The translations under genes were made by a program, and so were the position numbers. The notes under the pieces were generated by a model. It worked only from the letters and a program-made list of their open reading frames with translations, did not search any database and was not told the DNA's origin. From Nectonema munidae (taxonomy: Eukaryota; Nematomorpha; Nectonematoida; Nectonematidae), in the NCBI GenBank assembly GCA_030549495.1, contig JAUIRK010001056.1, forward strand, positions 731,001 through 795,000: a DNA stretch of 64,000 nucleotides. The letters run 5' to 3'. This document shows, one piece after another, positions 12,140 to 64,000 of this stretch (within the stretch, counting starts at the first letter, position 1; every line of letters begins with the position of its first letter).

Positions 12140-13101
12140 TTAGAAAATTATTGGAGGTGGGGGAAGGCCCTGGCTAACCCATTCACATAATTTATAAGAA
12201 GTAAGAAACCGATCCATTATTATGCCTATACCTTTGGGTAAATTTGAATCACTAACTAAGCGTTTTACTATACTTTTACCACTAAAATTGTTGCGATTTT
12301 TTAACATTAAAACGTATATTTGAGATGTTATAATATAATAACTTCTAGATTCATTACAATGGTATATTTTAATACCAAAACAACCAGGTTTCCAATGGTT
12401 GTAGATTTTAATTAGAAACCTCCCAAAGTTAACCAACTGCTCATCTATAGTAACAATATCATGAGGTGTATAATATATTGAAAATATATCATAAAAATAA
12501 TCATGCATATATATATAACTGGGGAAATCTTTTCTTTATTGTTTCTACAACATTTATCATTAAAACATAAATGTATAATATAAAAAATCTCTTGAAGTGA
12601 CTGCTTTCAAAAAAGGTTCTCCATGTTTTTCTAAAAAAAAGGTCCTTCAAATTTATTGATTGATTCTTAGAATGACCAATATGTAGTATACAAGCCCTAA
12701 CTTCAAACTTTTGATATGTGGAAAATAAATTCATATATTTTGGATTGGAACTTCTATAAAAAAAAACTTATTCGTAATTGTTTTTCATTTTTAGTTTAGT
12801 AAAGTTATATATGTGAAGAATCAGTTTCTGTCATAAATAATTAAAAAATATCAAGATTATCCTTCAATAGTTGAGCTACATTTTTACGATCAGCTGATTT
12901 TGATTGTGAAATATTTCAGATATTTCTTATTATCGGTCTTCCCGAAGTAGACTGCGTAGGTATCCAAGTAAAAACTGTGTTGTCAGGAGCAACAAAACTA
13001 TCAGAAAGGTCATAGGAATCATCTGAAGTTAAACTGTCACTACTGCAATAACTTTCTGATGAGTATGAGTAAGAATCGATAATTTCACTGATATCACTCA
13101 T
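12140..13101 (-). pseudogene. piggyBac transposase relic (N-terminal half)
   Basis: On the minus strand an acidic, Ser-rich start (13101-12916, MSDISEIIDS...) leads to SGRPIIRNI. A degenerate middle follows, and then a frame at 12508-12140 with the piggyBac catalytic context IVTIDEQLVNF, the KPGCFGIKIY block and the MDRFLTSYKLCEW block around the second acidic residue. The third catalytic region and the Cys-rich tail are missing, and at least two frame breaks separate the pieces. It is a dead copy related to the element at 25872-28756. Confidence 0.75.
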
Positions 13102-27300: not shown

Positions 27301-30300
27301 GATCCCCATTTTGCCCAATATATATCAACGCTCCGAAATAGGATAATAGATGATGTAATTTGAACACTTTGTATGAGTGAAGTAGTTGTGCATATTTAGG
27401 ACACGGGGATCTAAAATTTGGGAAATAATTAAAATCCTATCTAAACAATTAAAAATCTTACTTATAGTTGGCTTCCATCTTGTGCAACGTTTTCGCATAA
27501 ATGTAGGAAATTAATTCAAAATTAAAAAAGTTTGAATATCGATAAAATGTCTTTCATATTTTTAGCCAATCCTTTAGGACCAGAAGGTTCCAGAACAATA
27601 TTTCGAATATTTAAGCTTTCAGGTCTCCCTGCTCCTTGATGTTTCGGGTCTCTAGTATACTCTGTTGCATCGGGAGCAACTAAAGTTTCAAGTAATTCCT
27701 CTTCACTTGTGTAAGAAGATATAGAAGAGTCGGTGTCTAAGCTATTGAAGGAGGAGAAGGAGTCAGTAGACAAAGAAGAAGAAGAAGACATCATAAAGGA
27801 AAGAAGAAAATCAATTTATTCCAAGTGAGAAAAAACGCACGGCTCAAGAAATAAGAAACAAGAGTTTGAGCGTGAAACAAAGTGATCAAAATGGTACTAG
27901 GTTTGAATAGTTGAGATCAGAAGTGAAGAAGTAAATTACATACATATATAAAATGTTTTTAAAATCGTTTATGATCATCCTTTATTGCTTATTATTCTTG
28001 ACAAATTGAAGAGAAACGTCATCACAACGCGTATTGATGTTGTTCATAGCTTCATATCTTTTATACAATAAACAAATCAATCCCAATAACAAATCTCATC
28101 ATGACATTGCCAAGTTTATTTATGACACGATATGTGGCATTTCAAATATAAAGATACTATGACGCAAATTTATCACAATTGTTCGATACCTTTCATCATA
28201 CCATTGCTCAATATTTATGGCATATGTCTTTGCATTACAAATTTGAAGTATTTATGACGTGAATCAATGAAAGAAATTATTTATGCTTTATACCAATTTT
28301 TGATACATTTACAGCAAAAAGTTGTAATATAAATTTTGTATGATATAATCACCAAAAAAAACAAAGTCCGGTTAAATAAAGAAAATTTACTTACAAATTA
28401 ATTTGTGAAAAAGAATGATTTTTCTCAACCGAAAAACTTTTTAATCGTTGCTATATATAAAAATTAATAATTATTATGCTAAGTACTATAGTAGCTTTTG
28501 AAATAATCTAACTCAAAATTTATGTTTTTTATACTAATTTCATAATAATATAGATGGCGTTAAATTAAAAATTAAAAACTTCCATAGATTTTTTAATATT
28601 TAGTTTTTATTTTGTTAAACAACAGAAAAACAACTATTAAATACTAAACTATATTAAAAAAAATTTGTAATCGTAATAGATAAGAAAAAAAAATTGGACA
28701 AAAATGTCATAGAGTCCGTCATCCGTGTTATATTTTATACGTCCGTCAAGCGAGGGTTAAAAAGCAGAAGATTCATATACAAAACTATTTGAAAAAGCAG
28801 ACGAAGGTAAAATTGTTTTATATATGATACGCTGGTCACGAAAGGGTTATAAAAAAGCAAACCTTCATTGATATTCTATTTTTAAACAGCACTATAAATA
28901 ATAAAACTTTGTTTTGAATCTAACATCATTTCAATGTATAAAAACAGTAGCATTTAAATTATATTTTTCTTTATCAAAATGAAATAGATATGCGTTAAGT
29001 TGGGCGGCTGAGGGTTTAAATTTAAAATTGCGGGTCTTAAAATGTTAAGTGCAGGGCGGTTGCTGGTTTTTTTAATTTTTTTTCGGAGCGACAGTCAGGG
29101 TTTCTGTTAACCCTTTGAGGACCAGAATTTTGAAGAATAATCGTCTGCTTTTTTTTCAATGGAATTTTGTATGTTGTAAGCAGACGATTATTATTTCTTG
29201 TTACACCGGTGTCATACTAAGCCTCAAAGGGTTAAGAACTACTGGTATATCAAATGCAATGCAATGCAATAAATTCTTAACAAATGTGCATATAAAAGAT
29301 TGAGAGAATTTAAATTTATTCAGAAGGAAGGCACTCCATATGTTTACAAAATTGAACATATTTTTTTTCATTTTTTTTAAAATACCTGAAAAAATGATGT
29401 TTTAATACTCAAAAAAATCCGACCCAACTCTTAAATTTCATTCAATACGACTCTCATTCCGATTCCTATTCCTTTAAAATTTTCCATTTCACTAACTTCT
29501 CTCTTCTGGTTTAATGAATACTGATTTAGCCTTTTTTGAGATTTGGAAACGTATTATATTTTGGTATTCTCCCATCACTAGTAAAAATCAGAGTTGCAGT
29601 GTCAGAGGGTAAAACCTCCAACTGTTGTACTTAAAATTGATCTCCCCACTTAGATTCCAATCTACATAAGCCCGAATCAAACTCCTAATACTCACAAAAA
29701 TTCGTACAAAATATTTGTATCGAGAAATAGCTTGCAAATTGTAAATCAGAGCCAGAGAAACTCTAATCTAACTAAAATTAAAACTCATTATTTTAATACA
29801 AATTTTTACCCGACTCCAACCTCCTCTCCTTCACAACCTTCGGTAAATCTGGTAAAAACGCATGCTTGCATATAGAAGACCAAGAGATGCTTTTTTTGTT
29901 AAAGAAATATTCGAAAATAGCAAGTAAACGTCACTTTTGTATAATAATATGTAGCATAGAATTTGTATCGCCTTACGGAGTAAGAATTGCAAATCGCATA
30001 TAAAAATGTTTTGGAAAGAATTGTCAATTCCTAAACTTGAATGTTCTGTTTGTATCGCAAATGCTGTGTGTTTCACGACCCAATCACAATAAGCTTGATT
30101 ACTTCTGATTGACATTATTCATATGATTTCAGTCTACATTGCTTCTTTTTTATTTTAAATGTTTAGGAATTATTTCGAAGATAACCTACTTGAAAGAAAT
30201 GAAGATAAATTCTGTCGTTATAACTTCAATATTTCAATCCTATCCAAAGTACGTTGATGATGCAGGCTACAACTTCAAAAGTATCAGTCCAGAGTTGGGT

Positions 30301-46300: not shown

Positions 46301-49300
46301 TTCCGAATCATTATTATTATTTCAGCTATTTAACATTGCTCTGACGATGAATGAGAATTCAAAATAAATTCTATAAACTTTGATAAACAAAATGGGATGG
46401 ACTCTCTGTTCGTTACAAAAGTATCTCTAAAGTTACAAAATTGGTTTTACAACAATTCAGTGTAAATTCATTCACAATAATTCCTATACAAAAAGATTTT
46501 TTTAAACATTTGGAATTTGAGTAATGTAAAATTTTTGAGAAAACTAGAGTCAACATAAGTCATTAATTAAGAAGTTATATAATTAGATATTGTTAAATAT
46601 ACAAAAATATATTGTGGAAAATAATTTTGTCTCAATTGTATCAAGAAACTGGGATTGATACTTTTTTAATCGATTCCCAAATGGTCTGACGGCAATTTAG
46701 AAAAAAACCCGTTCTTATTTGGAGAAAAAATCTTTTCGGAAAGTCCATTGAAAAATTAATATTAAATTGCAAACATCTTTATTTTTTAAACGCTTGAAAT
46801 TAGGAGATATCTGAGTTTTGTTTTGACCCAAGTGAATAAAAATGTAAGATATACCCAGTTGTTGTACTGTTCTCAATTCATGGAAGTAGTCTCCCTGTAC
46901 GAAGTAGTAGAGAAGTTTCATTAGAGTCAATTTGCGATATTCATAAGCTCCGATTTGGAAAAGAATATAGATCGCACCGCTCGCCTCTTCTTTGTTAATT
47001 TTCGTGAATTCACTCATACTGTCTAAATGCAAAGAAATATCTATTCATCACTGACAGATGCTTTGCTTGCACCTAAAAGGGAAATTTTGGATCAACTGAT
47101 CTTGTATGGATCAGTGTCTAAATCCTCAAGCGGCCTTTCAGGCTTTGATATGCACATTCAAACAAATTTACTCGTATTCTTTTGATAATCTCTTTTGATG
47201 TGCTCTTTGCTTATAAGCACTCATTTTTTTATAATCATTTTCAAATCTATATAACTTTTTTTGTGTTTGAAAATAAATCTTCTTCTTCTTCTTCTTCTTA
47301 GGTTCAAATCTCTTATTAATTAAATCATTTAAAGCATTTTGTGTAAAAAAATGTGGTTTTCAATTCAATTAAAAATCTGGTGGTATGTATTGGGAGTCCG
47401 TTTCTACCATATCATTTTCTTCTACATCATTTGAAAGACCTTCTGTAATTTTGATCAAGGATGGTTTTGTGGTATTGGAATCGAAAGTGAAAGTTTAATT
47501 GGGCGAGAAGCTGATTCCATATTAGGATATATATTTTTTAGTTCGAATAGCAGTCACAGTAATATCTGTCCAGCAAAAATAACGCAATACCAAATTGCAT
47601 TGGGTAGCTAGTTTTCTTCCATTTTATCAATCTAGGAACAGAATTAATGCAACAATATTCTGCCGCCCAAGTAGTTGAATCAGCGTTACTATCAAAGTTA
47701 GCTATGTAGAGAGCCTTCACATGAGTATAAAAAGTACGTAGATTTTTTTCCAAAATACGGTCCACAAATGAAACAAAATATGTTTTTATTATTTTTGCAA
47801 GTATACGAGTCATTTCTAGAAAAGAAGTCATTTTATTTTTAGTATGAAAGAAAAAAATGAAAAAACAAATCTAAAAAATTATTACTGTTTATAAAGTTTT
47901 TACTGTGTCGGCATCTTTTCCATGTAATTGATCGCGCTTTTGTAAAAATTTGCTCTTGTTTTTTTTTATAAAATAAAATATATTTTATTTCCCTTGTTTT
48001 CCCTATGTGTATTCACGAATTATTCACAAATCCAAGAAGTATAAGAAATTTTATATTCTTGATTCAAATTCCAAAAAGTTTTCCACTTTTTCGTGAAACT
48101 CCAAACTAAAGTAACAATAATTTTTATTTTATGATGTGTTACCATTATTTTTTTTTTATATTATTCAAAATTTGAGTTGTTTTTATTTTTTAGTTTAGTT
48201 ATATACAAAAATTTCTGTATACGTGATTTTACAAATGTATTTTATCTCATTTTTTATTAAATTTTATATTTGAAATTGTTTTTAGATATATACTTTGTTT
48301 GTACTTTTTTTACACATTCTCTAAGCTTCATTAAAAATGATTTATAAGCAACCTTTCTATTTAAAAAAAACTGGAAATAATAAAACAAGGTAAATTTTGC
48401 ATAATACAAAAATGAAAAATAATCCTAAAGTTAAATTAAAAAAAATTTTCTGGAAAAAGACTTAGAGTTATCCGGAGTTTCCTTATATTAAAATTATAAT
48501 ATTATTATATAATAAATTTTATATTTATCTCTTTGAAGATGAAACTCAATCTTTCTAAAGTTACGGTGCGGATTATCCACACATACTAGACATATTCCTG
48601 GAGATAACAGCTTATAATTGGGATCCTGGAACATCACGATGTTATATTTAAATATTCAACAGTGCAGCATTCACCTGATTCATCAAATCACCATTAATCC
48701 TACTGGACCTTCAATCATTCAACCACATTGTACATCACAACTTTTACACACACATGCAAAACATCCAAAGTTATCGAATTCACGATATACACTACCTGAA
48801 GCCATATTTTCTGTAAATCAAAAAGACTTCAAAAATATCCACGTTTCTTGTGCTCGTGGATATGCGAACGAAGAAAACACGTCTTTTTAAGGTTGTATGA
48901 AAATATATTCAAAAAGAAAACCAGAAGTATTATTTTCATAAACTAATGCCGGAAATGTTAAGCAAGTTTAAATTCAATGTCATCTTCGCTTTCCTGGATC
49001 AAAAGAAATTCCTTTGAGAGCGACACTTTTGCAAGAATATAATCGTTTGCTTCTCTTCCAATGTTAACTTTGTATATTTAAAGATGGAGATTTTAATTTC
49101 ATGGAACACTGCTCCCTAAAGGATCAACGAAGTAAATGGAATCGTGATAGGAAATCTCTCCCAAAACATGTTAAAAATTGAGAAATATGATTATAAGGCC
49201 TTTCTTACTTTTGCTCAGCTTTATCACTTTTCCAAAGTCATTGTTTCTTGCTTTCGAATGACTTTGCTTGAAAATTGACGCAATCATATTCAAAGTCTTT

Positions 49301-52300
49301 TTAAAATGTTCAGCTTTTTCATTTCCAAAGGATAACGCGTAGATGCGAGAAACGTGAAAAAGGCCTTCTTTTGCTCTTTCTACATCCTCGAAAGAAAGAT
49401 CTAAATATTGAAGAAAAGGCACCGTATTCACGAATTATTCACAAATCCAAGAAGTATAAGAAATTTTATATTCTTGATTCAAATTCCAAAAAGTTTTTCA
49501 CTTTTTCGTGAACTCCAAACTAAAGTAACAATAATTTTTATTTTATGATGTGTTACCATTATTTTTTTTTATATTATTCAAAATTTGAGTTGTTTTTATT
49601 TTTTAGTTTAGTTATATACATAAAAATTTGTGTATACGTGATTTTACAAATGTATTTTATCTCATTTTTTATTAAATTTTAGAATTTGAAATTGTTTTTA
49701 GATATATACTTTTTTTACACATTCTCTAAGCTTCATTAATTATGAGAAAAAAATAGATTTATAATCAACCTTTCTATTTTAAAAAACTGGAAATAATAAA
49801 ACAAGGTAACTTTTGCATAATACAAAAATGAAAAATAATCCTAAAGTTAAATTAAAAAAAAATAAATTACAAAATAAAAATTTAGTTTCACAAGTCACAA
49901 ATATGTTATAAATTATAGTGAGGGTGCATACAAATTATAAGAATTATTTATGGGTGAACTTACAAGTCCTTGAATTTACATTGATATATTTAAAAGTGAA
50001 GCAAGAATCCTTACTTCGACTAGCTTCTAGAAGTTCTTTCGCGTTGAAATACTTCGCATTGAGTATTTCTTCTGACAATATTTCCACCTGCATTTCGAGG
50101 TTGTGTTTTCCTTTGTTCTCGATATCTTTCTCCACTTCCTTTTTCTTGATGTCGTATCGATTTTTTCTTAAGTGAACTTCCTTAATTTTTCGCAAAATGG
50201 TTTCCAAAAATAAAGCTTGTTTGTCGTTATATCCTTTTATCGAAAAGGTGTATTGATTGTATAAAATATTCCATTTGAAATTGATGCCTGCCATTTCTCC
50301 TTCTTTGATATAATCATCCAGTTCTTCCATAACAAGGTTCAATGACAACATAAATGCCAAGTAAGATTCTTTGCTTCCATAAAACTTATCATTCATGAAT
50401 CGCAAATAGTGAAAGGCATTAGGAAGTTCAAAAATTTGATCCATTTTGTAGTAAGTTTGGAAGAAAGAGTCATTCTTTAAAAGGACAGCGTTTTTGTAAT
50501 CAAGAGTCTTCTCTTTATGGGGTTGTAGTTTTTTTGAAAAAATTGTAAAGTCTGAAGGAATCAATTTTGATCCTTTGGGAAGTCGGAAAAAGGGATTCCA
50601 GGAAGTTCTCCATTTTTTTAAGATGCTTTCAGGAATTTTCTTGACTGAATAATTGATCTCGAACCACTTTTCCCAAAATAAATTTTCTTCGTCCAAAGTA
50701 TCTGTTGCTTCTATAATTCTAGAAAGTGAAAGAAAACTTGTATTAACTGCATAATATTTAACAGCAAAATTATGGACTTTTCCACACTTTATAAGTAACC
50801 TTACAGACATCGCCTCAAAAGTCGTCATTGTAAAGATATTATTATTATTATTATTATTTAGAAATGATTTAAAAATTTTAAAGTTATGTTTAAGGGTACA
50901 TTTTTTTTTTATGATTTTTCAGCTCAACTTTTGATCACACTAGTAATCAGGAAGATGAGTTTGATCTGGCGCTGAATAAAATCAGGCCAACGTATTCCAA
51001 TTTTTATTCAATTCTGCATTTGAGTATAGTGAACGCGTAGCTGAGATTTTGGAAGTCTTTCTTTTGAATTTCGAGATATTATATAAGGAAAGAATAGAAG
51101 CTAATTGAAAGAGTATACCTCATGTAATCAGGCGTTAAGAAAGATAGAACGTATTGGTAGAGTGTGGCGTTGTATTCATTGATTAAGTATGCCTTGGGGA
51201 GAACTTCTTCAATTGAAAAATCCTAAGAATATGGATGAAGAAAGGATAATGATTATTATTAGTTAAGGTCATCAAATTTGCACTAAAAATTACTTTCATA
51301 TTTAGAGCTATTTTTTCAAGATATGGGATCAAGTTCTTTGATTTGAAACGGTAGTCGATGCTTAATCTGTCTCGAACTTGTTTGTAAAAATCATAAGGGA
51401 CGCTGTGTTTTCTAAGTAAAGCTAAATACTGGAACAATGCTTCTACCAATTTTTCTCTATGGTCTAAAAAATTGAACACTACAAGATTACTTAAAGTTAA
51501 TTTAAAGTTAGAAGAATCATTTTTGTATATGTTTTATTGGTTATTTTAAATATCAAGTTTCAAGAAGATTAAACTTGTATTTGATTTGAGTTTTCTAATT
51601 TTTCGATCATTATGTAAAAAATATCAATATATAGTAAGGAATAATTTTACTCTTGCATAGAATGATATTCTTTTTTTTCTTTTTATTATAATTTCAAGAT
51701 TTGTATACTTAAGATAAGATAAGATAAGATTTATTTTGAAAATGAAAAGAAAAAGTTAAAATAAAATAGGGAAACTGAGACATATATAAAGATTCAAAAA
51801 GATTTTCAACTCTTACATTTCCTCTCAATATTCCCAACTTCCTCCATGTTCTGATATGAACTGTTTCATTTGCTCTGATCCATGATAAGAGTTTCTCGTT
51901 TTCTTTGACTTCTTTTTTGCAGTGTGTATCCTTCAGCGGTTTCTATAAACCTTTGGATTTACACATAATTTTTATTCCACATATGCTTATTTTCTCATTT
52001 GCTCGTATTCCAAAATAACTGTTAAATACATAGATTATTATTTATTAATGTAATTTTGTTTTCCACAATATATATTCGCTATATATGTCTCAGTTTCCCT
52101 ATTTTATTTTAACTTTTTCTTTTCATTTTCAAAATAAATCTTATCTTATCTTATCTTATTACCCATGTTAATTTCGATAACAAAAAGTAAATCCTCAAAA
52201 TAAAGAAACAAATCGACGTTTTATTTTTTAGTAATAATGAAATTTAGTTATCTTAAATTCAAATAAGTTATTGTAATATAAAGGCAAATTTTAAATGAAA

Positions 52301-55300
52301 TAAAAAGACTTTTGTGAATTACAAATTCATTCAAAATAATTTGTTATTTTTTTGTTTGCAACTTTTAATTTTTGAGAACATTAACATTTCAGTAAATTCG
52401 CAAAGTGAAATTCTTTTACTTATTATATGAGCACCAAAATAATTTTACTTATTCTTTGCCAGATTTAGTTTCTTGGCTAAACGTATGGTTAAATAAAAAG
52501 TTTATTTTAAAAAAGTGCTCATATTTAAAAATAAAAGAAAGTTTTTAATAAAAAAACTAAGTATTAAGCTAATATTACAAAAATAATCGAGTCATAAGGA
52601 ACGAATTTAAGTTTTTTTGTACATGTGAATTCTGAACAATAGAAATATCTCGTCTTATAAAAGCAACAATAGTCAGATATCATTAAAGCACGCCATCGCC
52701 CTTGAAAACGGATTTATATTTCTTTGATATCCTGATGGAAACCCCAGTCTTGATCATCGCTAACGTCTCTAAGGTTTCAGGAAAACGATTCAATTGACTT
52801 CAATTTACTGATCGTAATATTTTCACCAAGAACACGCATACGATGAAATCAAATTTTCGACAACTTTTCACAATGTCTGATAAAGCTGTCCAAGTTGAAG
52901 CTTCAATTTTAACATTCTTTGCAAAAAATTCTAAAAGTATAGGAATTTGTGCCCCACCAAAATTTCCTGCGTTGAGTTTAATAAATGTCGAATATAGAAA
53001 ACATCACATATGTATTTGAAACGGTATTAGTACAAAATCACTTTGGGAACCAAATTTCCCAAGACAAAACTTCGCATGGAAAATCCCCAATGGAAAAATT
53101 TTAAAGTATTCCTGAATGAAAATGTAAACAAGAATTCATAGTGGTAATTTGATTGATAAAAAAATCTTAAATGGTAGTGCATTGATTTGCTAATTTTATT
53201 TTCAAAGACTTCTATATTTCTAAAGATAAATAAAACAAGATACCATATCACTCTTTTCTTTCTTTATAGTTCTAGTTTGCTTAAATGAATATTACTGACA
53301 TATCAGTAGTTTTGAGCTAATCAATTAATTCTTCTTAATAAGCTTACATCTAGAAATCACTCTACTTCCACCTGCATCCCAATAAATTTTTTTTAAGCAA
53401 TCAAATAACTAATGTTACTTCTTGCTTACATTTTCATGAACTATGAATATCCTTATAATAGCATAAACTTAAAAATAAAAAATATCTGTTTCCATTTACA
53501 AAAAATGTACTTGTACTTCTTATAACCTATTTTCAAATATAAAAATAGGTTATCAGCTTAATAGAATATTCAGAAGTAATAATAACTATGCAAGAGAAAT
53601 TAGTAATCCGGTTATCAATCGCGTGATAGCTATGATGAATTGAAGCCCTCTCTAACACTTTGATCGTGCCGCTTCTGCCTTGCAATGAATGCTGTCTAAT
53701 TTTTCTCATCATCACTTTATCGACGCACCTTCTTTTCCTCATCATTACTTCTTCTAAGGATGCGTAGCATTCACTACTTTTAGGAAAGATTTGGGGTTTT
53801 AAATCTGATGATCATGCTAATTGAGAATAATATGAAACACTGCGTAGTCAAAAAAATTTAAGTTTTATTTTTTCTTATGATCATGAGAATTTAGAATAAT
53901 ACGAAACACTAAGTAGAGAAAAACTTTTTTTTATATTTCTCATGATTTTGTTAATTGAGAATAATACAAAAAAACTGCGTAGACAAAAAACTTTTTATTA
54001 TTGTTTTTTGTATTTTTCGGTGGAAAACATGCAGTAGAATATCTAAAAATTACAACTGCAATCTAAACAGTATGTCCTAAAATCTAAACGTGCTAAAAAT
54101 TTTCAACGATTTAGTAATTAGTTAGTTATTAGTTAAGTTTTTGAATTAGTTAATTAAAAATTGATGAAAATTTAACTTAGATATGTAGTAGTAAAATAAA
54201 ATTTATAGATTCTAGAAAAAATTAAATTATGTACATTGTTAAAACAAAAACTCATAGTAGGTAAAAGCGTAATTATAGGTAAAATAGAAACCTAAATAAA
54301 ACTCTTCAAAGATGTAAACTATATCTTTAACTATATAAACTAACTATATAAAACTATATAGTGTTAAATGATTTAAACACTATATTTACTAGCCAAATAT
54401 AAAAATTAATTCAAAGTAAACAGAAAAAAAATTTATTTGTATAGTTAGTTCAGTTCAAAATTAACAGTCAATTGTTTAATATATTTGAAATGCTGAACGA
54501 AGATGAAGCATTCAATATTGAAAAATTTACACAAAATTCGTCATCAGTATTGGATGTTTCCATGTTCTGAGGAGAGGATATACATATTGAAATTCTACTT
54601 AAAAACATGTATAAGTTTTTGTCTACAAGATATGCTGCATATATTTCCTCAATCATTTTTTCTTGATCTTTTCTGTCTTTCTTGCCTCCACTCCAGTTAT
54701 ATTTTGAGTTTAATGACTCTATTTCAGGAACGTCAACCCAAAGTCTCTCCTCATCTTTAATAAAAAAATCAATCACTTCCCATGTTGAAGTCTTTTCATA
54801 ATTTAATGACGATTTCAAACTTAACAATGGTACAATTAAAGCAAATTATTTATACAAAAAAAATTCTCCTGTTGTGAAATCCTTCGCAATGATTGTTTGT
54901 TCTTATTTTCCTTTTAAAAACGTTCCACAGAATTATTCTATTGAGCCAGTTGTTTTCAAAATATAAAAAAAATTCTTCAAGATTGAAAATATTCATCATT
55001 CTTTTCAGCTTTCTATAAGCAACTTTGATCTTTGGTTAAAAACATATTAATATTAAAATAATTTAAGGTTAATATATGTGATAATAATTGTAATGATTAT
55101 AAACCAAAATGATACTTCATTCTCAGGTAAGAACGCTAAAGCAAGTAACATTTTTATGCTCTTTCTGAAGGATAAACTTTTTGAATATAAGGGACGGAAG
55201 CCCATTTCAGATAGCTTTCTGTATATGCTCTGGCAAAAATGAAAATAGCATCCGTGGTAGATAACGTTAGGAAACGACTAAAAATTTATGATTTCCTAAG

Positions 55301-58300
55301 TATAGAGTATTCATATATGTAAACTTACTTCTCGTGCAGCTGAAATGATCGCCTGCTCAAAATCACCAACTATAGTTTTCAATTGATTTGAATTTATAAT
55401 TTCTTTTAAATGATCGAAAATTAGTCTTAGATAGCAAAATACGTGTATAATATAGCAAAATACATATATGGTAAATACCTGTATGTCTGTTGTTTTTTGT
55501 CACAAGCAATAGCATATAAAATTGGTATTTGAGTAATATTTAAGAATGCGTGTATTGTTATAATTTGATAGAAGTGACACGGCGCTTTTTTAAAAGTTCC
55601 ATCTATGTATATTTCGAATAAATTTGATGTTTGAACTAAATGAGTAAGCATTTTTCCATTAAAAATAATCAATCTTTTATTCTCATTTGTAAAACAGTCT
55701 AACTTTAGAAAATTAACGCCATTGGCTTTAGTGTACTTTTCAGGTATATCAAAATGTAAATTGGAAGGAGGCTTGACTCCCTTTTTGTTGTAACGAATTT
55801 TTCGTAGAATACTTCTTTTGAAACTCAGCAGCGTTTCTCTGTCTTCCCGATTTAACTTTGTTATGTTTTCTCTTTAAAAAGATAAAATAAATACACACGC
55901 TAAATTTAGAAAAAAAAGTACTGATATATTTGGATAGTTGACTTATTTGAAGTTAGTGCTTCCAGTTTTATATTTTCATTAAACTTCTCTATACGCTCAT
56001 TTATTTTTTCATGATTATGATCAAAAAACTTGAGAACATCATTGGAGCCGTCATTTTTGACAATAACTTTTCCTAACAAAATAAAAAACTACGACATAAA
56101 ACGACTTCCAGTTTATTTAAGAAAATGAAAAAATGATTTTACCCTAGGAAGCCCAAAAATTTTACCTACCTAGAAAGCCCATACCGGTCAATTGACCGGT
56201 TTAAATTTGTTTACAGTTTTTTTTAAAATCTAGAAACTATACAGCATTTAAAAATACTGATTTATTTTTTTTGAACACGCTGTAAAATATATTACATAAA
56301 ATATAAAAATTAAAATATTATTTTAATTTTTTTTACTAAAATATATAATTTTTAAACTAAAAATATTTTTAAACTTTAAAATAAAATGGCGTGGAAAATG
56401 ATTAATATTTCAAAAAATAAAAGTTTGCTTTTAAATGATTCCGATTCAATAAGTGACAGTTTTCAATCCGAAAATTCTTTTTTTTCTTCAAACAATATTT
56501 CAAGATATAGTGAAACAAGTTCTCAAAGTGAAACATCTTTAGAAACAGAACATATTCGCTTATTTGAAACATACTTTGAAAGTTAAGATGGAAGTAAATG
56601 GAGTGAAAATCCTTGTAGAACAACAAAAAGTTCAAGTAAAAATATTGTTCATCAAAGAGGTGGTCCAACAAAATTTATTTCTTCTAGAACTCAAAGCATC
56701 AAAGATGTTTTTGAAGAACTATTTGGAATACATAATATAAATATAATTGTGCAAAAAAACAATAGAAAAAGCACAAAAGCACAACGACATAAATTTTAGT
56801 ACTGATGAAGTGGAATTGAAGGCTTTTTTTGGCTTGTGTATTTTGAGAGGCGTTTTGAAAAGGAAAAACGAACCTTTATATACATTTTGGGAGGAAAAAT
56901 ATGGGAAGAAAATCTTTAGAGAGACTTTTTCAAAAAATAAGTTCAAAAGTATTCTTAGGTATATAAGATTTGATGATAGCAGTACGAGGATATCTAGAAA
57001 GCGATCCGACAAATTTGCTCCCATGCGTGATTTATGGAAATCAGTTATGAAAAACTGCGAAAAAAGCTACAAACCATATTTTAACGTTACGATTGACGAG
57101 CAATTATTTCCTTGTAAGAGTAAATCTTCATTTATGCAATATATGCCATCTAAGCCGGGCAAATTTGGTATCAAGTTTTGGATGATTTGCGATACAGAAT
57201 CTTATTACATTCTAAACACCTATCCATATATGGGAAAAGAGGAAAGAATCGGTTCGTTATCAGAAAGTATCGTCATGAATCTGATTGAACCGTATAAAAA
57301 TCAAGGATTAAATATTACCGTTGATAATTTCTTTACAAATCTGAATTTAGCACAAAAACTTCTACGACAGAAAACTAATTTAGTAGGTACTATGCGGTCC
57401 AATAAAAAAGAAATTCCTACTGAAATTAAAATGAACAAAAGTAATCACCTTTATGATACCAAATATGCTCTTACCCTTGATGATAACATATCTCTATTAT
57501 GTTATAAAGCTAAAAAAAATAAAGTGGTGTACATCCTATCATCCATGCATGATAAAATCGAAATTTCATCATCTAAAAGAAAGAAACCAAACACAATTTT
57601 ATTTTATAATTCCACAAAAGGAGGAGTTGACACAGCAGACGAAATGTTGAAAATATATTCAACTAAATGTGCCACAAAAAGGTGGCCTTTATCAGTATTT
57701 TTTAACTTGATAGACATTATCTGCCTAAATTCTTTTATAATATGCACAAAGCTTGAAATATTTACGGCAAGCAGAAGAAAGTTTCTTATTGAATTAGGAG
57801 AAACTCTATGTGAAGATAATATAAATCGAAGGAAAACTAATTCTCCTAATTTACTTATCGCCAGATCTTCAACAAATAATATTGAAAAAGAAACACGAAG
57901 AACAACATGTAGAGTATGTATGAAAAATAAAACAAAAGTAAGTTGCTATGGATGTTCGAAATACATTTGTGGTACTTGTTCAGTAAAAGTTTGTGAAAAG
58001 GGCATTTTGAAAAAATAAATTCAAATTGAAAATTTTATTTTTTAGTTTTATAAATTTGTTTTTTAATAAATAAAAATGATAATAATAATTTAATTAACAA
58101 ATAGAGATTTTTAAGTTTACATAATTCTATATTATGCAGACCGATCAATTGACCGGTCTGGGCTTTCTAGATATATTTGGAATCAGTGGTAAGACTTTTG
58201 CCAACCATGACAAAATTTTTACTGTATACCGTAGGGAACAATGTTAAATTTAGACTTGTGAAGTATCCACTGAAAATAACGGGAATTTTTTTGCAATGAA

Positions 58301-61300
58301 GTTTTTAAATGAATCTAGCGGTCAATTGACCGGTATGGGCTTCCTAGGGTTAAAACGTTTAATATTTTCTAATTTATTATAATATATACCCGGACAGTTC
58401 CTTTTTACACAGCGATAATGAATTGTAGAATTGAACACTCTGTTAATATGATACTTAAAATCTTCAATTATTATCATTTTGGGGACTCGGTACACACAAG
58501 TAATGATGATGAAAAGAGCGTGAGTCGATAAAGTGATGAGGAGGAAAATTAGACAGGTTTTACTGCATTGTTGTTTAAGAAGGCAGAAGCGAAACGATCA
58601 AAGTGTTAGAGGGAGCTTCAATTCATCATAGCTATCATAGCTATCACGCGATTGATAAGTGGATTAAATTGTAGGCAAAATCGCCATGTAGGCAAAATGT
58701 CCGTTTGCCCGTTATGATAGTATCAAGGGCTTCTCGAACTGCTGGAAGCTTTGGAATTTTAACAACTAAATCATTTTCTTCATTAGCCTTCTTTGTGTCA
58801 CCATTAGGAACTTCTTCGACTCTTTCTTCATCTGTCATAACATGATGACCAGGGTCTTCTTCTGTTTCTTCTAGCCACTCTCTTACATATTCCAAAGAAA
58901 CATGTTCCCCGCTCTTTTGAAGAGACAATGAAAATCATTTGGGTCAAAATCTTCAAAATCGTACTCAACATCATCAGTATCATACAGAAGTTTTTTCCAT
59001 GCGTTGGCCCGGGTTGTTGCTTTAACGTCTTTCCATGCAGCTCAATATTGAAAATGGCCCCTTTTATGTTGTAGTTCCTGAAATTTTCTTTTGTTTTTTT
59101 TCCTCTTATATCAACTCCAACATCCTCATCATCAATGACATACAGCACGTCTTTTACAGGAATAAATCACACTCTGGTCCATTGGCTGAATCAGAGATGT
59201 AACATTCGGAGGCAAAAAAAGAACTATAATTTTTCCATTATAACTAACAAGGCTTGATTCATTAGGGTGGGCAGGGGCATTATCTAAAATTAACAAAGCT
59301 TCTACATATTTAGGAGCAATTTTTAGAATATTTTTTTGAAATTTCTGAACTTCTGGTAGAAAATGTTTAAAAAACCAATCTTGAAAAATTTCCATGTTAA
59401 ACCAAGCCTTTTTCGAGTTGTAGTAATGAACGGGCAGGCAATTCATACCATCTTTCAAAACTCGCGGGCGCTTAGACTTGCCCACCACAGAGAGAGGTAA
59501 ACGATGTTGACCATCTGCGTTGGCGCAACACAAGAATGAAATCCTTTCTTTACGTATCTTTTCACCATGATTATCTTTTTCATCTCTAAATGCCTGCGTA
59601 TTTTTTGGGATACAACGCCAAAAAAGACCACTTTCATCAGCATTGTAAAGTGTATAACTAAAAAGTAGGAAAAAATGCCTCCAATTAAAAAGTAGGAAAA
59701 ATTGCCCCCTAATTTTTGATTTTCAGATTTTTTTATATTATATAAATATTTTTATTTGGTACCGTTTTGAAGGGCTAAATTTCTAAAATTTCTTAATCTA
59801 TAGGGTTTTTTTCTTTATAAAGTTCTTAAAAACAATAGCAAAGGTGCCGATTTGTGGGAATGTGTCCTTAAAATCAGTTAAAACATAAATTATATTTAGA
59901 AAGTGTTCTGATACACACAAAGTCCAAAAATATTTGCTGTTTTATAAATTATTTTTGTATTTAAAAAATTGTCGTATGCTGAGTTTTTTAGTTTACTTTA
60001 ATTAAATTATAAATGTTTTAGATGAAAAGTTAACTTTTTGTTTTTTTTTACAAAAAAACTTTATTTGACATATCTTTGAAATTTGAAAAAAAAATTTATA
60101 AGTACCATTAACAAATTGTTAAATTTTATTTAGGTTTACAAACTAGTTATTAAATGAATAAAATCATGAATAAAAAAATTAAAGATAGGAAAGTATAATT
60201 ACATTTGGTTGTTAGAAGTAAAATTCAAGTTGTAAAAAAATTTGATTACTCGTAGTTAAGTAAAAAGTTTTACTAACCTAGTCTTTGGGATATAAAAACA
60301 CAAAAAACACTTCAAATTTTCCCAAAATATTTAAAATCACAAAGCACATCAAAACATTACAAAGCCTATAAAACGTCAAAAAAAATTATTCCTATTTTAA
60401 ATTTATTTTAGTTTTCGGCAGTTTTAAACAAGTTTGTCAGTTTTTAAATGTTTTTTATCTTAATTTTGAAGCTTCCTTGCTTTTTTAAGTATTTAAATGT
60501 TTTCCGTGATGTTATGAGATGTTTATGGGTTCTGTATCGCTGGGAGATTTTTTGCAAACTTTTAAGGAGTTTGTGGTGTTCATTTAAAGTTGTGGCAAAT
60601 CATAATATTGTAATTATTTTTCAGTGTTTTATAACATTCTGTTCTGTTTTCAGGTGCCTAGTATTGTTTTGAAACACTGAAATTTTCAAAAGCCAGACAA
60701 AAAATTAACATATGAGAAAAAAGTGTAAAAATATCATTACAGCTGGTTACTCAAATCATTTTCGTCAGCAATGCATGTGAAGGAGCAAGAAAGTTATAAT
60801 AAATCAAGTGTGTGAAGAAATCATAAACACTTGTTTTGAGAACTCATTAGTCTTTCTATTTCTTCACATAGCTTCTTTGCTGTGCACATAAATAAGTAAG
60901 GATTTTCATTTACGTAAATGTGTTCTTTATTTGTGTTATTTAGGTTTTCTTTTAAATGGACATCATAAAATCTAGCAAAGGTAGTCAAAAATTATGTTAC
61001 GAAGGATATATGTACACTAAGCAGAAAAGTAATAAAAAGTCGATATTTTGGAAATGTGTCGGTAGAACTAATGGTTGCAAGGCAAGAATTAAAACATCGC
61101 CTAATAATGATAACCCTGTTATTGTAACAAATCATGATCATGAACCAGATCAGACGAAGATCAAAATCTGCAAAGCTCGCACTATTATGAAAGAAAGAGC
61201 TAAAAGTACAAATGATAAACCAGCCATTATTTTTTCTCAAACGGTTCAACAACTTGATCAAGTGACGCAAATGCAGATTCAATCAGATTCTACTTGCAAA

Positions 61301-63810
61301 AGGAGCATTCAAAATCAAAGGAGTAATGCATTTCCTCCGATACCTCAAACTCTGCAAGATCTTGATTCGAAATGGGCGTAACAACTGGGCCAAATCCGAG
61401 ACGCCATCCGAGTCAAATCGCCGAATCATCGTGTACGCGACAGACGAACATTTGGCCAAACTGACTGCTACAGAGACATGGTTTATGGATGGCTGCTTTT
61501 CTATGGCACCTCCAGTTTTTCTTCAGCTATATGTGATACATGCATCACTGGGAAAAAGTTAAGTTCCAGTTGTATATGCATTTCTTCAACGAAAAACTCA
61601 AGATGCCTATGAACAACTTCTGAAAGTTGTTGTTGATCGTTGTGAACAACTAGGACTTGACGTGAATCCAGTTACCATAAAATGTGATTTTGAGTGCTGT
61701 GTAATGCAAGATATTCCATTAATTCTTGGAACTGATGTTCAAATTTGAGCATATTTTTATCACGTGACACAATCAACTTGGCGCAAAATTCAAGAGTTGG
61801 GATTAGTCAACCGTTATTGCTGTGGTATTGACTTCAAACACTTTTGTGGAATGATGGACGGCTTGGCATTTTTACCAATGAATGAAGTTTTTCTTGGTTA
61901 TGTAATTGTGCGCATCCGGGAAGAGAAGAACTTCTTAACTACTTCAACGCTACCTACATTAACGGTTCATACCGGCAACGTAATTGAGTTGAAAATACTG
62001 AAACTCAGGTACGCTTAAGGCATATTCCTCCTCGTTTTCCACCGAAAATTTGGAATGTTCATGAAGAAACTTTAAATGGCGATCCTCGAACGAACAATGT
62101 TTGCGAAGGTTGGAACAGTAGGTTTAGCAAACTTGTAAGTCTCACCCATCCTTCAATATGGCGTGCGATACACTACATCCAGATGGAGGAAACGAACGCT
62201 GAAGCAAAAGTTTTACAATATGATTTTGGAACGGAGATGGAAAAAAGAATTAAGCGTGCTCAACAGCAACAGCAGGAAAGCTTGAAATGTTTATGTAATA
62301 GATATGATGCAGGTGAATTACAAATTGAAGATTTTTTAAAAGGTGTTGCTCACAACACTCATCTAGGAAGCAGATAGGAAAGACTTTCATTTGATAAAAA
62401 AAAACAAAAAAATTGCTTGATATCATAACGCTGTTAGTAAAAAATAAAACTGTAAATAATTTTTATTCTTTTTTATTTTAGAATACAAATGTATACCTGA
62501 CTTAATTTAGAGGAGCTTGAACTATTGAATTTTTAAAAGAATTTTGGTGTCGAGTAAAAAAGTTTAAAAATAAGAAGCAATACACTTCAAGTATATAATA
62601 ACTTAATTATATTTGAAAATTTATAATTATTTTATCTAATTGCTTTGAATGCCTTAATTTTTCAAAATCCGTCATAATTGTACATTTTAAAGGCACAAAA
62701 TATCAAAAAGGTATATTAAAGTTTTATCATAAAAAAAGATCCTAAGAAAAGATCTTTATATATATATACACAAAATTTGAGAAGTAAAGGAATTGCGATG
62801 AAAATACTTAACGATGAAAATACCAACGATGTATTGCATCACAATGAATTTACTATTCATTAGATCTAGGGTAAAAATTTACAATAATTAGATCTAGGGT
62901 AATTTTCATCTAGGGTGAAAATTTCCACCATGAAGTTACTACGATGAAATTACAGGATACCACTAATTATTGTAAAGTTAAAAGACTAAATATATTTGTA
63001 GTATGTAATTAAAAAATAATTTCTAAATAAATAATATAATTTAACTAATAATGTTGAAAAATTAATAATTTTTTGAAATTTTTTGTGTTAGGGCATTTTT
63101 TCCTAATTTTAAATTGGGGGCATTTTTTCCTGCTTTTTAATTGGGGGCATTTATTCCGCGGGCATTTTTTCTGCGCACCCATTTATTCAACCACTAGAAT
63201 TATTTTTTTTCAAAAAAAGCTATTTACGTTTTTGCTTAAGTTAAGTGTTTATCTTAACAAAAACCAAAAACAATAACTTTAAAAGTTTAAAAGAATAAAT
63301 GTTTTCCTTCATTTTTAAGTGTCCGATTAGCAAAGTTAAAAAAAAGAATTTTTGATCAGTTAATTTTATGTTGATGTGAGTAAAAACTTATGGATATTCT
63401 TCCAAAATTAAATATTTAAATTTATGCATAGGACTTATTTTTTTCGATATAATAAAAGATTTCGCAAAATCAAATTTCTTCAACTATCTCATTTCTACGA
63501 GATTGGGGAAAATAAAATCTTCGGTATAATAAAAAGTTCGTTATAATGACGTTCAACTGTGATAAAACATTTTTATAATTTTTTTATAAATTTGAAGTTT
63601 TTTACATCTTATTAAAAAATCGATATAGAAACTGAAAAGAAATGTACCTTTTCCCAATTCTGTAAGATCGTAGTGCATCACAAAAATTTTAAACGTTTTG
63701 TAATCTTGGATGAAAATGTTTTGTTGCGTAATTAATCCTTTATTCATTAAGTAACTATTCAATCCTGTCTTATGACCACTTTCAAGGCATCTTTGGATCA
63801 TTAAATCAGG
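42809..63810 (-). CDS. Insulin-degrading-enzyme-like M16 metallopeptidase, C-terminal two thirds (eleven exons, 5' part off window)
   Basis: Insulysin-type M16 enzymes are zinc peptidases that enclose peptides in a two-half chamber. Exons in transcription order: 63810-63648, 51463-51294, 51222-51119, 50718-50015, 49400-49209, 47022-46855, 46230-46106, 44585-44438, 43594-43533, 43111-42998, 42874-42809. Every junction is GT-AG and in phase, giving 671 residues, close to the same part of human IDE. Landmarks in order: GHKTGLNSYLMNKGL and VMHYDLTELG (compare GPGSLLSELKSKGW and NVDLTEEG), FSIEEVLPKAYLINEYN, SIKGYNDKQALFLETIL (compare SVKGYNDKQ), and LRTVQQLGYNLYMEV, holding the Arg and Tyr of the substrate-binding LRT..QLGY motif. 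The HxxEH zinc domain must lie beyond the right edge. Divergence is high but no lesion is seen. Nardilysin is less likely. Confidence 0.9.
42998..43111 (-). CDS. IDE-like exon
   Basis: The acceptor is ATATATTAG/GAATAT and the donor ACAAAT/GTAAGT. It encodes EYLSESSSTKSILKICFVGK, then DGFNITKETKDEIIDSTN, the A....R.KLSVHV.G strand of the last M16 domain. It is phase 0 on both sides. Confidence 0.83.
43128..43503. repeat. CAT/ATC microsatellite with a longer repeat unit
   Basis: About 375 bp of CATCATCAT is interrupted by CACA, CCACAT and TTCACAT. The array has a higher-order pattern of roughly 12-20 bp units. It lies within an 0.4-kb intron of the protease gene. Confidence 0.95.
43533..43594 (-). 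CDS. IDE-like short exon, 62 nt
   Basis: The acceptor is TTAATTTTAG/GAAAGA and the donor TATAAT/GTATAC. It encodes KKITDMCKELKKEDLEDFYN, matching the L..LTKEDI..FY block of IDE. Confidence 0.82.
44438..44585 (-). CDS. IDE-like exon
   Basis: The acceptor is TTATTTACAG/GGCAAA and the donor GGATTAA/GTAAGT. It encodes GKIANLSREDYAKLKENVIE and ESNFLEYCLTQKNIDFGL, matching the MTEEAF......L.......L..E...YW..I....Y.F region. Confidence 0.85.
46106..46230 (-). CDS. IDE-like exon with LGY..Y substrate loop
   Basis: The acceptor is TTTCTTTTAG/GTTATA and the donor ATAAAG/GTATTG. Joined to the previous exon it gives LRTVQQLGYNLYMEVRTIG, then VLYIGFFIQTEVDVVTVESA. This corresponds to LRTKEQLGYIVF...R..NG..GL.F.IQSE in IDE. 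Confidence 0.9.
46855..47022 (-). CDS. IDE-like exon
   Basis: The acceptor GCATTTAG/ACAGTATG (phase 1) and donor CAACTGG/GTATAT are in phase with both neighbours. It encodes EEASGAIYILFQIGAYEYRK, then LTLMKLLYYFVQGDYFHELR. This is the N..I.IYYQ......EN..LELF......F..LRT block. A second acceptor 4 nt downstream would break the frame. Confidence 0.88.
48009..48447. repeat. Direct repeat, copy A (partner 49424-49862)
   Basis: About 439 bp, nearly identical to 49424-49862 in the same orientation. Both start GTATTCACGAATTATTCAC and end in AAAGTTAAATTAAAAAAA. A few small indels separate the copies. Confidence 0.9.
49209..49400 (-). CDS. IDE-like exon
   Basis: The acceptor TTCTTCAATATTTAG/ATCTTT borders repeat copy B and the donor is GCAAAA/GTAAGA. 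It encodes LSFEDVERAKEGLFHVSRIY, then ALSFGNEKAEHFKKTLNMIA. This matches the LPRL..F...LLS.LHIEAL..GN region. Confidence 0.88.
49424..49862. repeat. Direct repeat, copy B
   Basis: Partner of 48009-48447, 1415 bp away. Its left edge is about 24 bp from the acceptor side of the exon at 49209-49400. Confidence 0.9.
50015..50718 (-). CDS. IDE-like large exon (704 nt), start of C-terminal half
   Basis: The acceptor is CACTTTCTAG/AATTAT and the donor AGTCGAA/GTAAGG. It encodes WFEINYSVKKIPESILKKWR, then FRLPKGSKLIPSDF (compare LP..NEFIPTNF), GEMAGINFKWN (compare AELAGLSYDL) and TFSIKGYNDKQALFLETILR. This is the third M16 domain of insulysin-type enzymes. Confidence 0.93.
50805..50813 (-). CDS. Possible 9-nt microexon of the IDE-like gene
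   Basis: GCGATGTCT is preceded by ACTTTTGAG and followed by the strong donor GTAAGG. Its inclusion keeps phase 2 on both sides and adds three residues (MRRCLIIEA instead of MRIIEA), which fills a gap against the PENVRVAIVSK strand of IDE. Skipping it is also in frame. Confidence 0.35.
51119..51222 (-). CDS. IDE-like exon
   Basis: The acceptor is CATATTCTTAG/GATTTT and the donor ACATGAG/GTATAC. It encodes FSIEEVLPKAYLINEYNATL, then YQYVLSFLTPDYM. This matches YPLEEVL.AEYLLEEF......VLDKLRPEN. Confidence 0.9.
51294..51463 (-). CDS. IDE-like exon
   Basis: The acceptor TTCAATTTTTTAG/ACCATA and the donor ATGAAA/GTAATT bound it. It encodes HREKLVEALFQYLALLRKHS, then FYKQVRDRLSIDYRFKSK. This matches the H.EDII...FQYI..LR......WVF.E.K.L....FRFK..E region. 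A 12.2-kb intron lies 5' of it. Confidence 0.88.
51711..52158. mobile_element. 448-bp foldback element with 77-bp inverted arms
   Basis: The left arm 51711-51787 (AAGATAAGATAAGATAAG, then TTTATTTTGAAAATG and AAATAGGGAAACTGAGAC) is the inverse of 52082-52158, almost perfectly. The outer ends are (AAGAT)n repeats. The centre is non-coding. Confidence 0.88.
52680..53250. other. Degenerate repeat-like stretch, unassigned
   Basis: Its composition is less A/T-biased than the surroundings and frames are long but broken on both strands (minus 53251-53027 is open for 74 codons). It looks like a decayed mobile element, but I recognise no domain. Confidence 0.3.
54468..58477 (-). CDS. MULE 1 transposase gene, spliced, apparently open
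   Basis: Exons in order: 58477 to about 58360, 56072 to about 56007, 55871-55479, 55425-55329, 55277-55116, 55008-54856, and a last one within 54827-54468. The first two make a FLYWCH zinc finger (FKYHINRVFNSTIHYRCVKR..C, then FFDHNHEK). The third has the first catalytic Asp in YIDGTFKKAPCHFYQI. The fourth has GDFEQAIISA (second acidic pair). The fifth has CYFHFCQSIYRKL and LLALAFLPENE. The sixth has YFENNWLN..LWNVF..K.RTNNHCEGFHNR. The first six join in phase with GT-AG borders. The junction to the seventh (WEVIDFFIKDEERLW) is unresolved. Introns are 51-118 bp except the one holding the piggyBac. Confidence 0.78.
56142..58349 (+). mobile_element. piggyBac transposon, 2.2 kb, young, inside MULE 1
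   Basis: The ends CCCTAGGAAGCCCA (left) and TGGGCTTCCTAGGG (right) are perfect 14-bp inverted repeats. TTAA follows on the right (58350-58353); the left flank is TTTA, one change away. Next to each end lies a palindrome CCGGTCAATTGACCGG, with AGAAAGCCCA repeats nearby on both sides (56170-56200 and 58137-58170). The transposase reads outward on the plus strand, opposite to MULE 1. Confidence 0.94.
56386..58018 (+). pseudogene. piggyBac transposase, nearly intact (one stop, one frameshift)
   Basis: The frame starts at 56386 (MAWKMINIS, acidic Ser-rich N-terminus) and meets a TAA at 56584. It then continues through RGGPTKFISSRTQS and DVFEELFG. A shift near the A run at 56752-56758 moves it into the long frame 56747-58018. 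That frame has FNVTIDEQLFPCK (first Asp), KPGKFGIKFW, ITVDNFFTNLNLA (second Asp), KGGVDTADEM (third and fourth Asp) and a Cys-rich finger CRVCMKN...CYGCSKYICGTC. All catalytic residues are kept. With only two lesions in about 540 codons this is a recent loss, or a functional copy with sequencing errors. Confidence 0.92.
58664..59645 (-). pseudogene. Tigger/pogo-type (DDE_1) transposase relic
   Basis: Minus-strand frames contain NADESGLFWRCIPKNT (first catalytic Asp), EKIRKERISFLCCANADGQH, LPVHYYNSKKAWFN, and LLILDNAPAHP (second Asp), then VLFLPPNVTSLIQPMDQSVI (third Asp). A frame change then leads to a charged tail ending EALDTIITGKRT. The order is that of Tigger/Jerky DDE_1 proteins. The N-terminal HTH/CENP-B DNA-binding part is missing: the fragment stops where MULE 2 begins. 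The other end stops at MULE 1. Confidence 0.88.
59655..63178 (+). mobile_element. MULE 2: second FLYWCH MULE, inverted ends built of tandem units
   Basis: The left end (59658-59715) has two direct units of AAAAAGTAGGAAAAAATGCC and similar. The right end (63075-63178) has about four units in inverse orientation (GGGGGCATTTTTTCC...TTTTTAATT). Between them lies a decayed MULE transposase (60956-62377). The ends differ from those of MULE 1. I could not define a target duplication. Confidence 0.7.
60956..62377 (+). pseudogene. MULE 2 transposase pseudogene
   Basis: Four plus-strand pieces in different frames make up the gene. At 60956-61381 is a FLYWCH finger (YEGYMYTKQKSNKKSIFWKC, then GCKARI...HDHEPD). 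At 61326-61562 are TWFMDGCFSMAPPVFLQLYV (first Asp) and ASLGKS. At about 61560-62018 are PVVYAFLQRKTQDAYEQLL, KCDFECCVM (second acidic motif) and STWRKIQELGLVNRY. At about 62030-62377 are RTNNVCEGWNSRFSKLV and the C-terminus. Stops at 61381, 61560, 61747 and 62018, with frame changes, mean it is inactive. Confidence 0.87.
63200..63557 (-). mobile_element. Possible 5' end of the Tigger element
   Basis: On the minus strand the sequence from 63557 starts CAGTTGAACGTCATTATAAC and continues with GAAC and TATTATACCGAAG. CAGT-starting ends followed by AACGAAC-type words are seen in Tigger/pogo elements. Between this and MULE 2 there is only non-coding sequence, so the N-terminal coding part was lost. 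Confidence 0.4.
63648..63810 (-). CDS. IDE-like exon (most 5' one in the window)
   Basis: The acceptor is TATTTTAG/CCTGAT and the donor GGGAAAAG/GTACAT, phase 1. It encodes PDLMIQRCLESGHKTGLNSY, LMNKGLITQQNIF and FKIFVMHYDLTELG. This matches NPGHYLGHLIGHEGPGSL..ELKSKGW and the INVDLTEEG strand of IDE. Confidence 0.88.
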
Positions 63811-64000
63811 CTAAAATATTTACAAACGCAACTTTAAGAAATATAAAGTAAATTTTGTTTTCTAGAAGCAAAATAGATATAGGTTTTTTTCTTTTTCACT
63901 TATATAATGAATAAGAGAACAAAGAAAAAAAAGTTTTGAAAAGAGCAGAAATTTATTCAAAATACAATCATTTTTGAAGTAAAAGTTAAAAAATTATTAA

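Follow-up and report, generated by a model that had tools for sequence, protein, structure and literature searches.

The available text on Phantom-type MULEs, a group of animal elements, gives target duplications of 8-10 bp and a FLYWCH domain, a SWIM domain or neither (PMC6446971). Tm1 of root-knot nematodes is Phantom-like, and in what is accessible of its description one copy has lost part of its 5' repeat and lacks a duplication, while a nested element is described in a relative (PMC3169594). Deletions adjacent to maize Mu elements are put at no more than about 1% of gametes in the part of the source available (PMC2774946). As for one element traveling in another, MER6 is summarized as a mariner-type MITE carrying a SINE V domain (PMC6887750). 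A literature search at mostly abstract level, with subscription papers largely outside it, did not bring up any account of a MULE with a piggyBac inside it.

We describe an intron of Nectonema munidae in which MULE, piggyBac and Tigger elements are stacked. The window is the whole stretch of DNA analysed, 64,000 nucleotides of contig JAUIRK010001056.1, and it lies within the 211.6-Mb host genome that was searched. Such nesting within an intron is ordinary, and all three families are known ones. More unusual are a near full-length piggyBac spread as the cargo of a MULE, and the frequent loss of one end in that MULE family.

The host intron and its unoccupied duplicate

The intron covers 51464-63647 on the minus strand (12,184 bp), with GT...AG splice signals read from the sequence. 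The exons joined across this splice match insulin-degrading enzyme (E = 8 × 10−5), and a downstream exon has an M16 middle domain at 49944-50918 (Pfam E = 7.3 × 10−39); the host gene is an insulin-degrading-enzyme-like (M16) protease gene. The splice signals and the joined-exon match bear out a preliminary description of this DNA, which had placed the stack inside one 12.2-kb protease intron. From left to right the order is ancestral intron, a fragment of a repeat called R4, MULE1 with piggyBac inside it, Tigger, a short filler, MULE2, and ancestral intron again. MULE1, piggyBac, Tigger and MULE2 are all repeat families in the host genome.

What is ancestral can be read from a duplicate of the locus on contig C569, which aligns with window 49158-53438 as four main pieces (84.7-94.2% identity). 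Ancestral intron common to the two covers 52213-53438 on the left (84.7% identity), and on the right 63180-63973 is common to them (89.1% identity), being intron to 63647 and exon beyond. Between the equivalents of 53438 and 63180, C569 has 1,899 bp where the window has the stack. When six element pieces were compared with the C569 stretch, R4, both parts of MULE1 and MULE2 had no match, and piggyBac and Tigger had one match each, of 37 and 39 bases. On two further contigs, C58 and C621, a left flank like that of the window continues into sequence like the 1,899 bp of C569, which indicates that this sequence was lost from the window rather than gained in C569. On either flank the window stands at a distance of about 0.08 from C569, which makes about 4% for each lineage, more than the private change of any element in the stack. 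Misassembly over a 5-kb repeat was also considered, and is argued against by the colinearity of C569 with the window on both sides of the stack. The right limit of the stack had been given as 63557, which is too far right, since MULE2 stops at 63179 and ancestral intron begins at 63180.

Positions 51491-52212 of the same intron include two 79-bp arms (51710-51788 and 52080-52158) that are perfect inverted copies of each other. This segment is missing from the C569 duplicate and for that reason is probably another insertion. Window 48113-48447 and the sequence from 49527 onward both match one stretch of C569, a pattern that suggests an internal duplication near the protease exons. Further broken piggyBac-type transposase frames (DDE_Tnp_1_7) are found in the window at 26094-27436 and 12140-12535, both on the minus strand, and the end of a hAT-type transposase at 40310-40837 (minus strand) scores exactly at the Pfam cut-off.

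The joint between MULE1 and Tigger

The element at 58710-59648 on the minus strand has a DDE_1 transposase (E = 3.6 × 10−31) and is of the Tigger/pogo type; comparison with other copies makes it an internal fragment. Among seven fetched copies, the match to the window starts at 58710 in five, and at 58723 and 58727 in the other two. A near-complete copy, L002 1116-3169, is about 2.05 kb long with TACAGTAGACC ends, and it runs beyond both window joints, by 385 bp left of 58710 and by 716 bp right of 59649. TA-flanked ends of the TACAGTAGACC...GGTCTACTGTA type are found in L002-L005, with one base changed in L004, and the window fragment has neither terminal inverted repeat. The outer parts of Tigger were sought in the window and in the fetched C569 stretch, giving chance-like matches only (best E = 0.001, 68 bases at 75%). 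That Tigger copies might simply end at 58710 is ruled out, as copies continue past it. Intact copies ending at the joints, which the preliminary description had named as evidence against insertion, were not found; the near-complete copies pass both joints. Since only part of Tigger is present here, we infer, rather than observe, that it inserted into the intron instead of arriving as an already cut piece.

MULE1 occupies 53604-58709 overall, on the minus strand, with piggyBac dividing it in two. The left part (53604-56141), which has transposase exons on the minus strand, has lost its left terminus, and inverted-repeat matches place the truncated left terminal inverted repeat at 53604-53750. 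The right part (58350-58709) has its terminus GTCCGTTTGCC intact, as judged from other copies, which end in the same GTCCGTTTGCC, corresponding to window 58709, and have different right flanks. When putative exons of the window and of copy C342 are joined, the resulting frame scores above cut-off for the MULE transposase domain (PF10551, E = 2.1 × 10−8); two single window frames of MULE1 gave no Pfam match. The FLYWCH domain of MULE1 is weak, at E = 0.018 below the Pfam cut-off in the spliced translation of copy C342, whereas that of MULE2 has E = 3.8 × 10−16, so that the earlier naming of two FLYWCH-MULEs is sound for MULE2 and sub-threshold for MULE1.

The end of MULE1 at 58709 and the start of Tigger at 58710 are fixed independently from other copies. 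Tigger had been given as 58664-59645; the left edge falls 46 bp inside MULE1, and the fragment runs instead from 58710 to about 59648. The sequence 58664-58709 matches other MULE1 ends, and was never joined to Tigger outside the window among the 40 of 41 candidates scored. The claim that Tigger stops exactly where each MULE begins is thus correct at the MULE1 terminus, and fails at the MULE2 joint, where there are about 8 bp of filler and the MULE2 terminus is missing. Within 50000-64000, CGTTATGAT occurs only at 58710, leaving no second target copy for the window MULE1. Because a precise MULE1 right terminus adjoins internal Tigger, and private divergence is 2.6% for Tigger versus 0.4% for MULE1, Tigger predates MULE1, in the order first proposed, and the sequences support a precise insertion of MULE1 in a Tigger.

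On its other side MULE1 is adjoined by R4 (53439-53602, 164 bp), an internal fragment of a fourth repeat that is cut at both ends. The piece is found in at least 17 other places in the genome among the best 40 of 58 candidates scored, and the fetched copies share sequence past its left end in 6/6 cases and past its right end in 5/6.

piggyBac as the cargo of MULE1

The piggyBac element (CCCTAGG...CCTAGGG) lies at 56142-58349 on the plus strand and, as first described, is carried by a MULE, namely MULE1. It has a broken transposase frame matching DDE_Tnp_1_7 (E = 3.6 × 10−68), with a longest stop-free stretch of 423 aa (56747-58018); 506 relatives were found. Junction reads and empty sites give TTTA at 56138-56141 as the left target copy and TTAA at 58350-58353 as the right one.

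The preliminary description had piggyBac arrive last, and this is contradicted by its presence at the identical MULE1 site in at least 10 other copies (C607, C146, C577, C596, C601, C722, C583, C78, C215 and C473), which with the window makes at least 11 genome places for the MULE1::piggyBac composite, with different flanks. These counts are lower bounds, with 40 of 141 candidates scored in the MULE1 search and 40 of 106 in the piggyBac search; the piggyBac scoring leaves out MULE1 copies C645 (ends complete, piggyBac not seen), C622 and C605. Since the same MULE1 site is occupied in 10 other copies with different flanks, piggyBac reached this intron as MULE1 cargo, acquired before MULE1 arrived here. 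The left piggyBac junction reads TTTACCCTAGG in 9/9 other composites read, and in C78 a deletion spans the left junction and the right one is intact. The empty site, TTTTAAAA, is present in MULE1 copies C342, C167 and C398, and the C162 MULE1 has no room for piggyBac. FLYWCH-like translation on both sides of the site in C342 suggests that piggyBac lies within a short intron of MULE1, close to its edge. Segmental duplication of the composite was tried as an account of the copies; right flanks differ in 14/14 read, and left flanks differ too, except in C146, whose 42-bp left end is common to C697 and C191.

Could piggyBac have entered different MULE1 copies repeatedly, at the same TTAA? piggyBac elements need TTAA, and free copies exist on C50, C623, C358 and C536, differing from that of the window by 1.5-2.0%. 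TTAA flanks C623 on both sides, and the other three deviate on one side or both. Because C50 and C358 also have TTTA on the left, the left TTTA of the composites is not diagnostic of a single insertion, which leaves room for repeated entry. Yet site and orientation are the same in every composite read, with no other orientation or site seen, and the divergence intervals of MULE1 and piggyBac overlap. Moreover, a tree splits seven near-full-length composite piggyBacs from five free ones (including C664, 15.8% distant) with support 91, as expected from one insertion. We therefore give repeated insertion next to no credence, and a single entry of piggyBac into MULE1, before the composite spread, is strongly supported. 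One copy, C398 (106279-113387), is without piggyBac yet lies 1.0-1.5% from ten composites in the tree, roughly the distance that separates the composites from one another, and is a candidate for precise piggyBac excision, indistinguishable from never having had piggyBac.

MULE2 and the relative ages of the pieces

A filler of about 8 bp, read from the sequence at 59649-59656, separates Tigger from MULE2 (59657-63179, plus strand). MULE2 has a FLYWCH frame at 60956-61381, and two of its window frames joined across a stop match PF10551 below cut-off (E = 0.003). Its right terminus, CTGCGCACC, is intact and its left terminus is lost, other copies beginning with GGTTGTAGG, a start that the window copy does not have. 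In C569, where the site is unoccupied, CATTTATTC is read once at the point where the match resumes; in the window, the right end of MULE2 is followed by CATTTATTC (63180-63188), the sole remaining MULE2 target copy. Within 50000-64000 this word occurs there and at 63148, inside the MULE2 right repeat, with no target copy on the left side of MULE2. The family makes target duplications of 8-9 bp elsewhere, with GATTATTC in L036 and ATATTCGAT in L043 and L044, the latter one base off in L041 and L042, although L041-L044 share one host repeat and are perhaps one event; with 40 of 1005 candidates scored, the MULE2 counts are lower bounds.

Private substitutions number 22/839 in Tigger (2.6%, 95% interval 1.6-4.0), 9/433 in MULE2 (2.1%, 0.95-3.95, first 460 bases only), 11/2529 in MULE1 (0.43%, 0.22-0.78) and 16/2204 in piggyBac (0.73%, 0.41-1.18). 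Terminal branches in the trees, at 0.0276 for Tigger, 0.026 for MULE2, 0.0036 for MULE1 and 0.0035 for piggyBac, agree with these counts, the MULE1 tree being nearly star-like and poorly resolved. Left out were C624 (near identical to C203) from the Tigger count, C664 from the piggyBac count and C744m (a multi-copy array) from the MULE2 set. None of the 12 piggyBac copies examined has a long whole transposase frame, the longest being the 423 aa of the window. Tigger and MULE2 have both changed more in the window than MULE1 and its piggyBac. The order of Tigger and MULE2 cannot be set, because their age intervals overlap.

Taken as a whole, the order first proposed, with Tigger followed by both MULEs inserting into it and piggyBac entering MULE1 last at this locus, is correct in having Tigger older than MULE1, whose right terminus adjoins it exactly. 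Beyond that it is contradicted by the shared piggyBac site, and it is not supported for MULE2, whose terminus is missing where it meets Tigger and which has no Tigger on its far side: ancestral intron lies directly right of 63179, and the MULE2 target word is unoccupied in C569. We regard that order as very improbable.

A different account would have a single break repaired as a patchwork, with pieces of R4, MULE1::piggyBac, Tigger and MULE2 copied end to end in place of 1.9 kb. In its favour, neither R4 nor Tigger is more than an internal fragment, ragged joints make up three of the five, and the host intron has had 1,899 bp replaced. What makes it improbable is that the joints of MULE1 with Tigger and of MULE2 with CATTTATTC fall exactly on element termini, that the pieces are about three- to six-fold apart in private divergence, and that the MULE1-Tigger joint is at none of the other listed places (40 of 41 candidates scored).

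Loss of the left end in the MULE1 family

The lost left terminus of the window MULE1 is shared by most of the MULE1 copies read. Left ends were read in 17 MULE1 copies and are complete in four (C607, C722, C342 and C645), replaced in one (C146) and truncated in 12, the loss being deep in 3/12 (no end within 1.5 kb in C583 and C398, and none in the approximately 180 bases read in C622). Right ends are complete in 14 copies, truncated in one (C162) and not found in three (C215, C605 and C622). C162, whose left end could not be read, was left out of the left-end count, and C697/C191 were treated as a separate element. Where both ends were read (n = 14), 10 copies have the left end lost or altered and the right kept, and the reverse was not seen (sign test, 0.002, copies treated as independent); with the three unfound right ends counted as lost, Fisher p is 0.002, on the same treatment. 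The copies were gathered by the left part, so bias, if any, favours left ends. A search with the complete left terminus (26/26 candidates scored) gave the same four complete ends and a short solitary piece at C694. The window composite at 53604 and that at C601:24722 break off at one and the same base of the left end (TAATCCGG) and differ in their flanks, and the piggyBac tree groups the window with C607 and C146, not with C601, despite the shared cut.

Loss extends to the target, as seen at the two composite sites with readable empty sites. The C577 target lost 19 bp (empty sites C656 and C314), and the C607 target lost 183 bp as compared with C607:1552, C672, C674 and, within a base, C17; at C673 (two places) and C532, the C607-type target shows intervals that differ in being shorter. 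At C601, most flank matches stop 19 bp short of the joint. The empty-site search scored 40 of 219 candidates, and the C577 query was 13 bases short of the prepared flank.

A 2.07-kb element on C697 (L090/L092) and C191 (L091/L093), in two copies 99.8% identical, is partly MULE1-like and makes normal 8- and 9-bp duplications; an end related to its 42-bp left end lies beside C722. Related MULEs on C596, C649 and C382 have no single intact transposase frame.

These patterns raise the possibility of one-ended integration, in which the right end alone joins the target and the left is attached by end-joining at insertion, giving no target duplication. Such duplication is absent from 8/8 composites with both flanks compared, related MULEs do make 8-9 bp duplications, and C607 has a complete left terminus and yet a 183-bp target deletion. 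However, ordinary insertion followed by adjacent deletion would give the same products, C342 and C645, with both ends complete, have matching 8-bp flanks of low complexity, and composites share words away from the ends, of 8 bp in C596 and 7 bp in C722. We consider the one-ended route rather unlikely. Equally unlikely is its extension to the whole lineage, that the piggyBac-carrying MULEs habitually integrate by one end, with a precise right joint and a left joint at which end-joining costs both element and target some DNA. If that were true, each jump would be a local deletion, here of 1.9 kb of intron and most of a Tigger.

A proposed history for the locus

At this locus the left joints of MULE1 and MULE2 read as deletion scars, because the outer parts of Tigger are absent, R4 adjoins MULE1, and both MULEs are without left termini. 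The simplest reading is two deletions, each from or in a MULE left end.

The explanation that we hold with good confidence for the whole is as follows. Tigger and MULE2 would have inserted in the intron first, and the MULE1::piggyBac composite then in Tigger. A break at or near the MULE1 left end, and another at the MULE2 left end, would have removed adjoining DNA, so that both MULEs lost their outermost bases and their left target copies, and all but the present fragment of Tigger went together with the larger share of the ancestral stretch. The MULE1-side break would have been patched with the 164-bp R4 piece, which needs an extra step in this history.

Deletions adjacent to maize Mu elements are explained by transposase cutting. 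Since such deletions are documented, the recurrent loss in the MULE1 family is likeliest to reflect a cut at one end that is then repaired imprecisely; the transposase would cut at the left end, with resection and end-joining after it.

Comparison with known systems

The locus illustrates that the nesting visible at one place can mislead about order, since the innermost element may belong to the older association. Here two DNA transposon superfamilies spread as a composite unit, and the same genome also offers empty sites, copies that are dated and a duplicate of the locus free of the stack. With end loss falling on one side, the manner in which animal MULEs cut their two ends and join them becomes a testable question.

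The MULEs resemble the Phantom type in the FLYWCH domain of MULE2, the MULE domain of MULE1 (from joined pieces), the inverted repeats, and the 8-9 bp duplications made by the MULE2 family and by the MULE1-related element on C697 and C191. They depart from it in MULE1, where FLYWCH is sub-threshold and most copies read no longer have the left terminus. Tm1 differs in that 45 of 53 complete Tm1 elements keep their 8-10 bp duplications in the available description (PMC3169594). The piggyBac is like its superfamily in the DDE_Tnp_1_7 transposase and in the TTAA on both sides of free C623, and unlike it in that the left TTAA of the composite reads TTTA. As in the adjacent deletions of maize Mu, the deletion begins at one element end; unlike them, one end of one family is favoured here, and the deletion often cuts into the element. 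Finally, the composite is like MER6 as outlined in its source (PMC6887750), in that one element has spread by riding the burst of another. In MER6 the passenger is a piece of a SINE in a MITE, whereas here it is a near full-length DNA transposon inside a DNA transposon of another superfamily.
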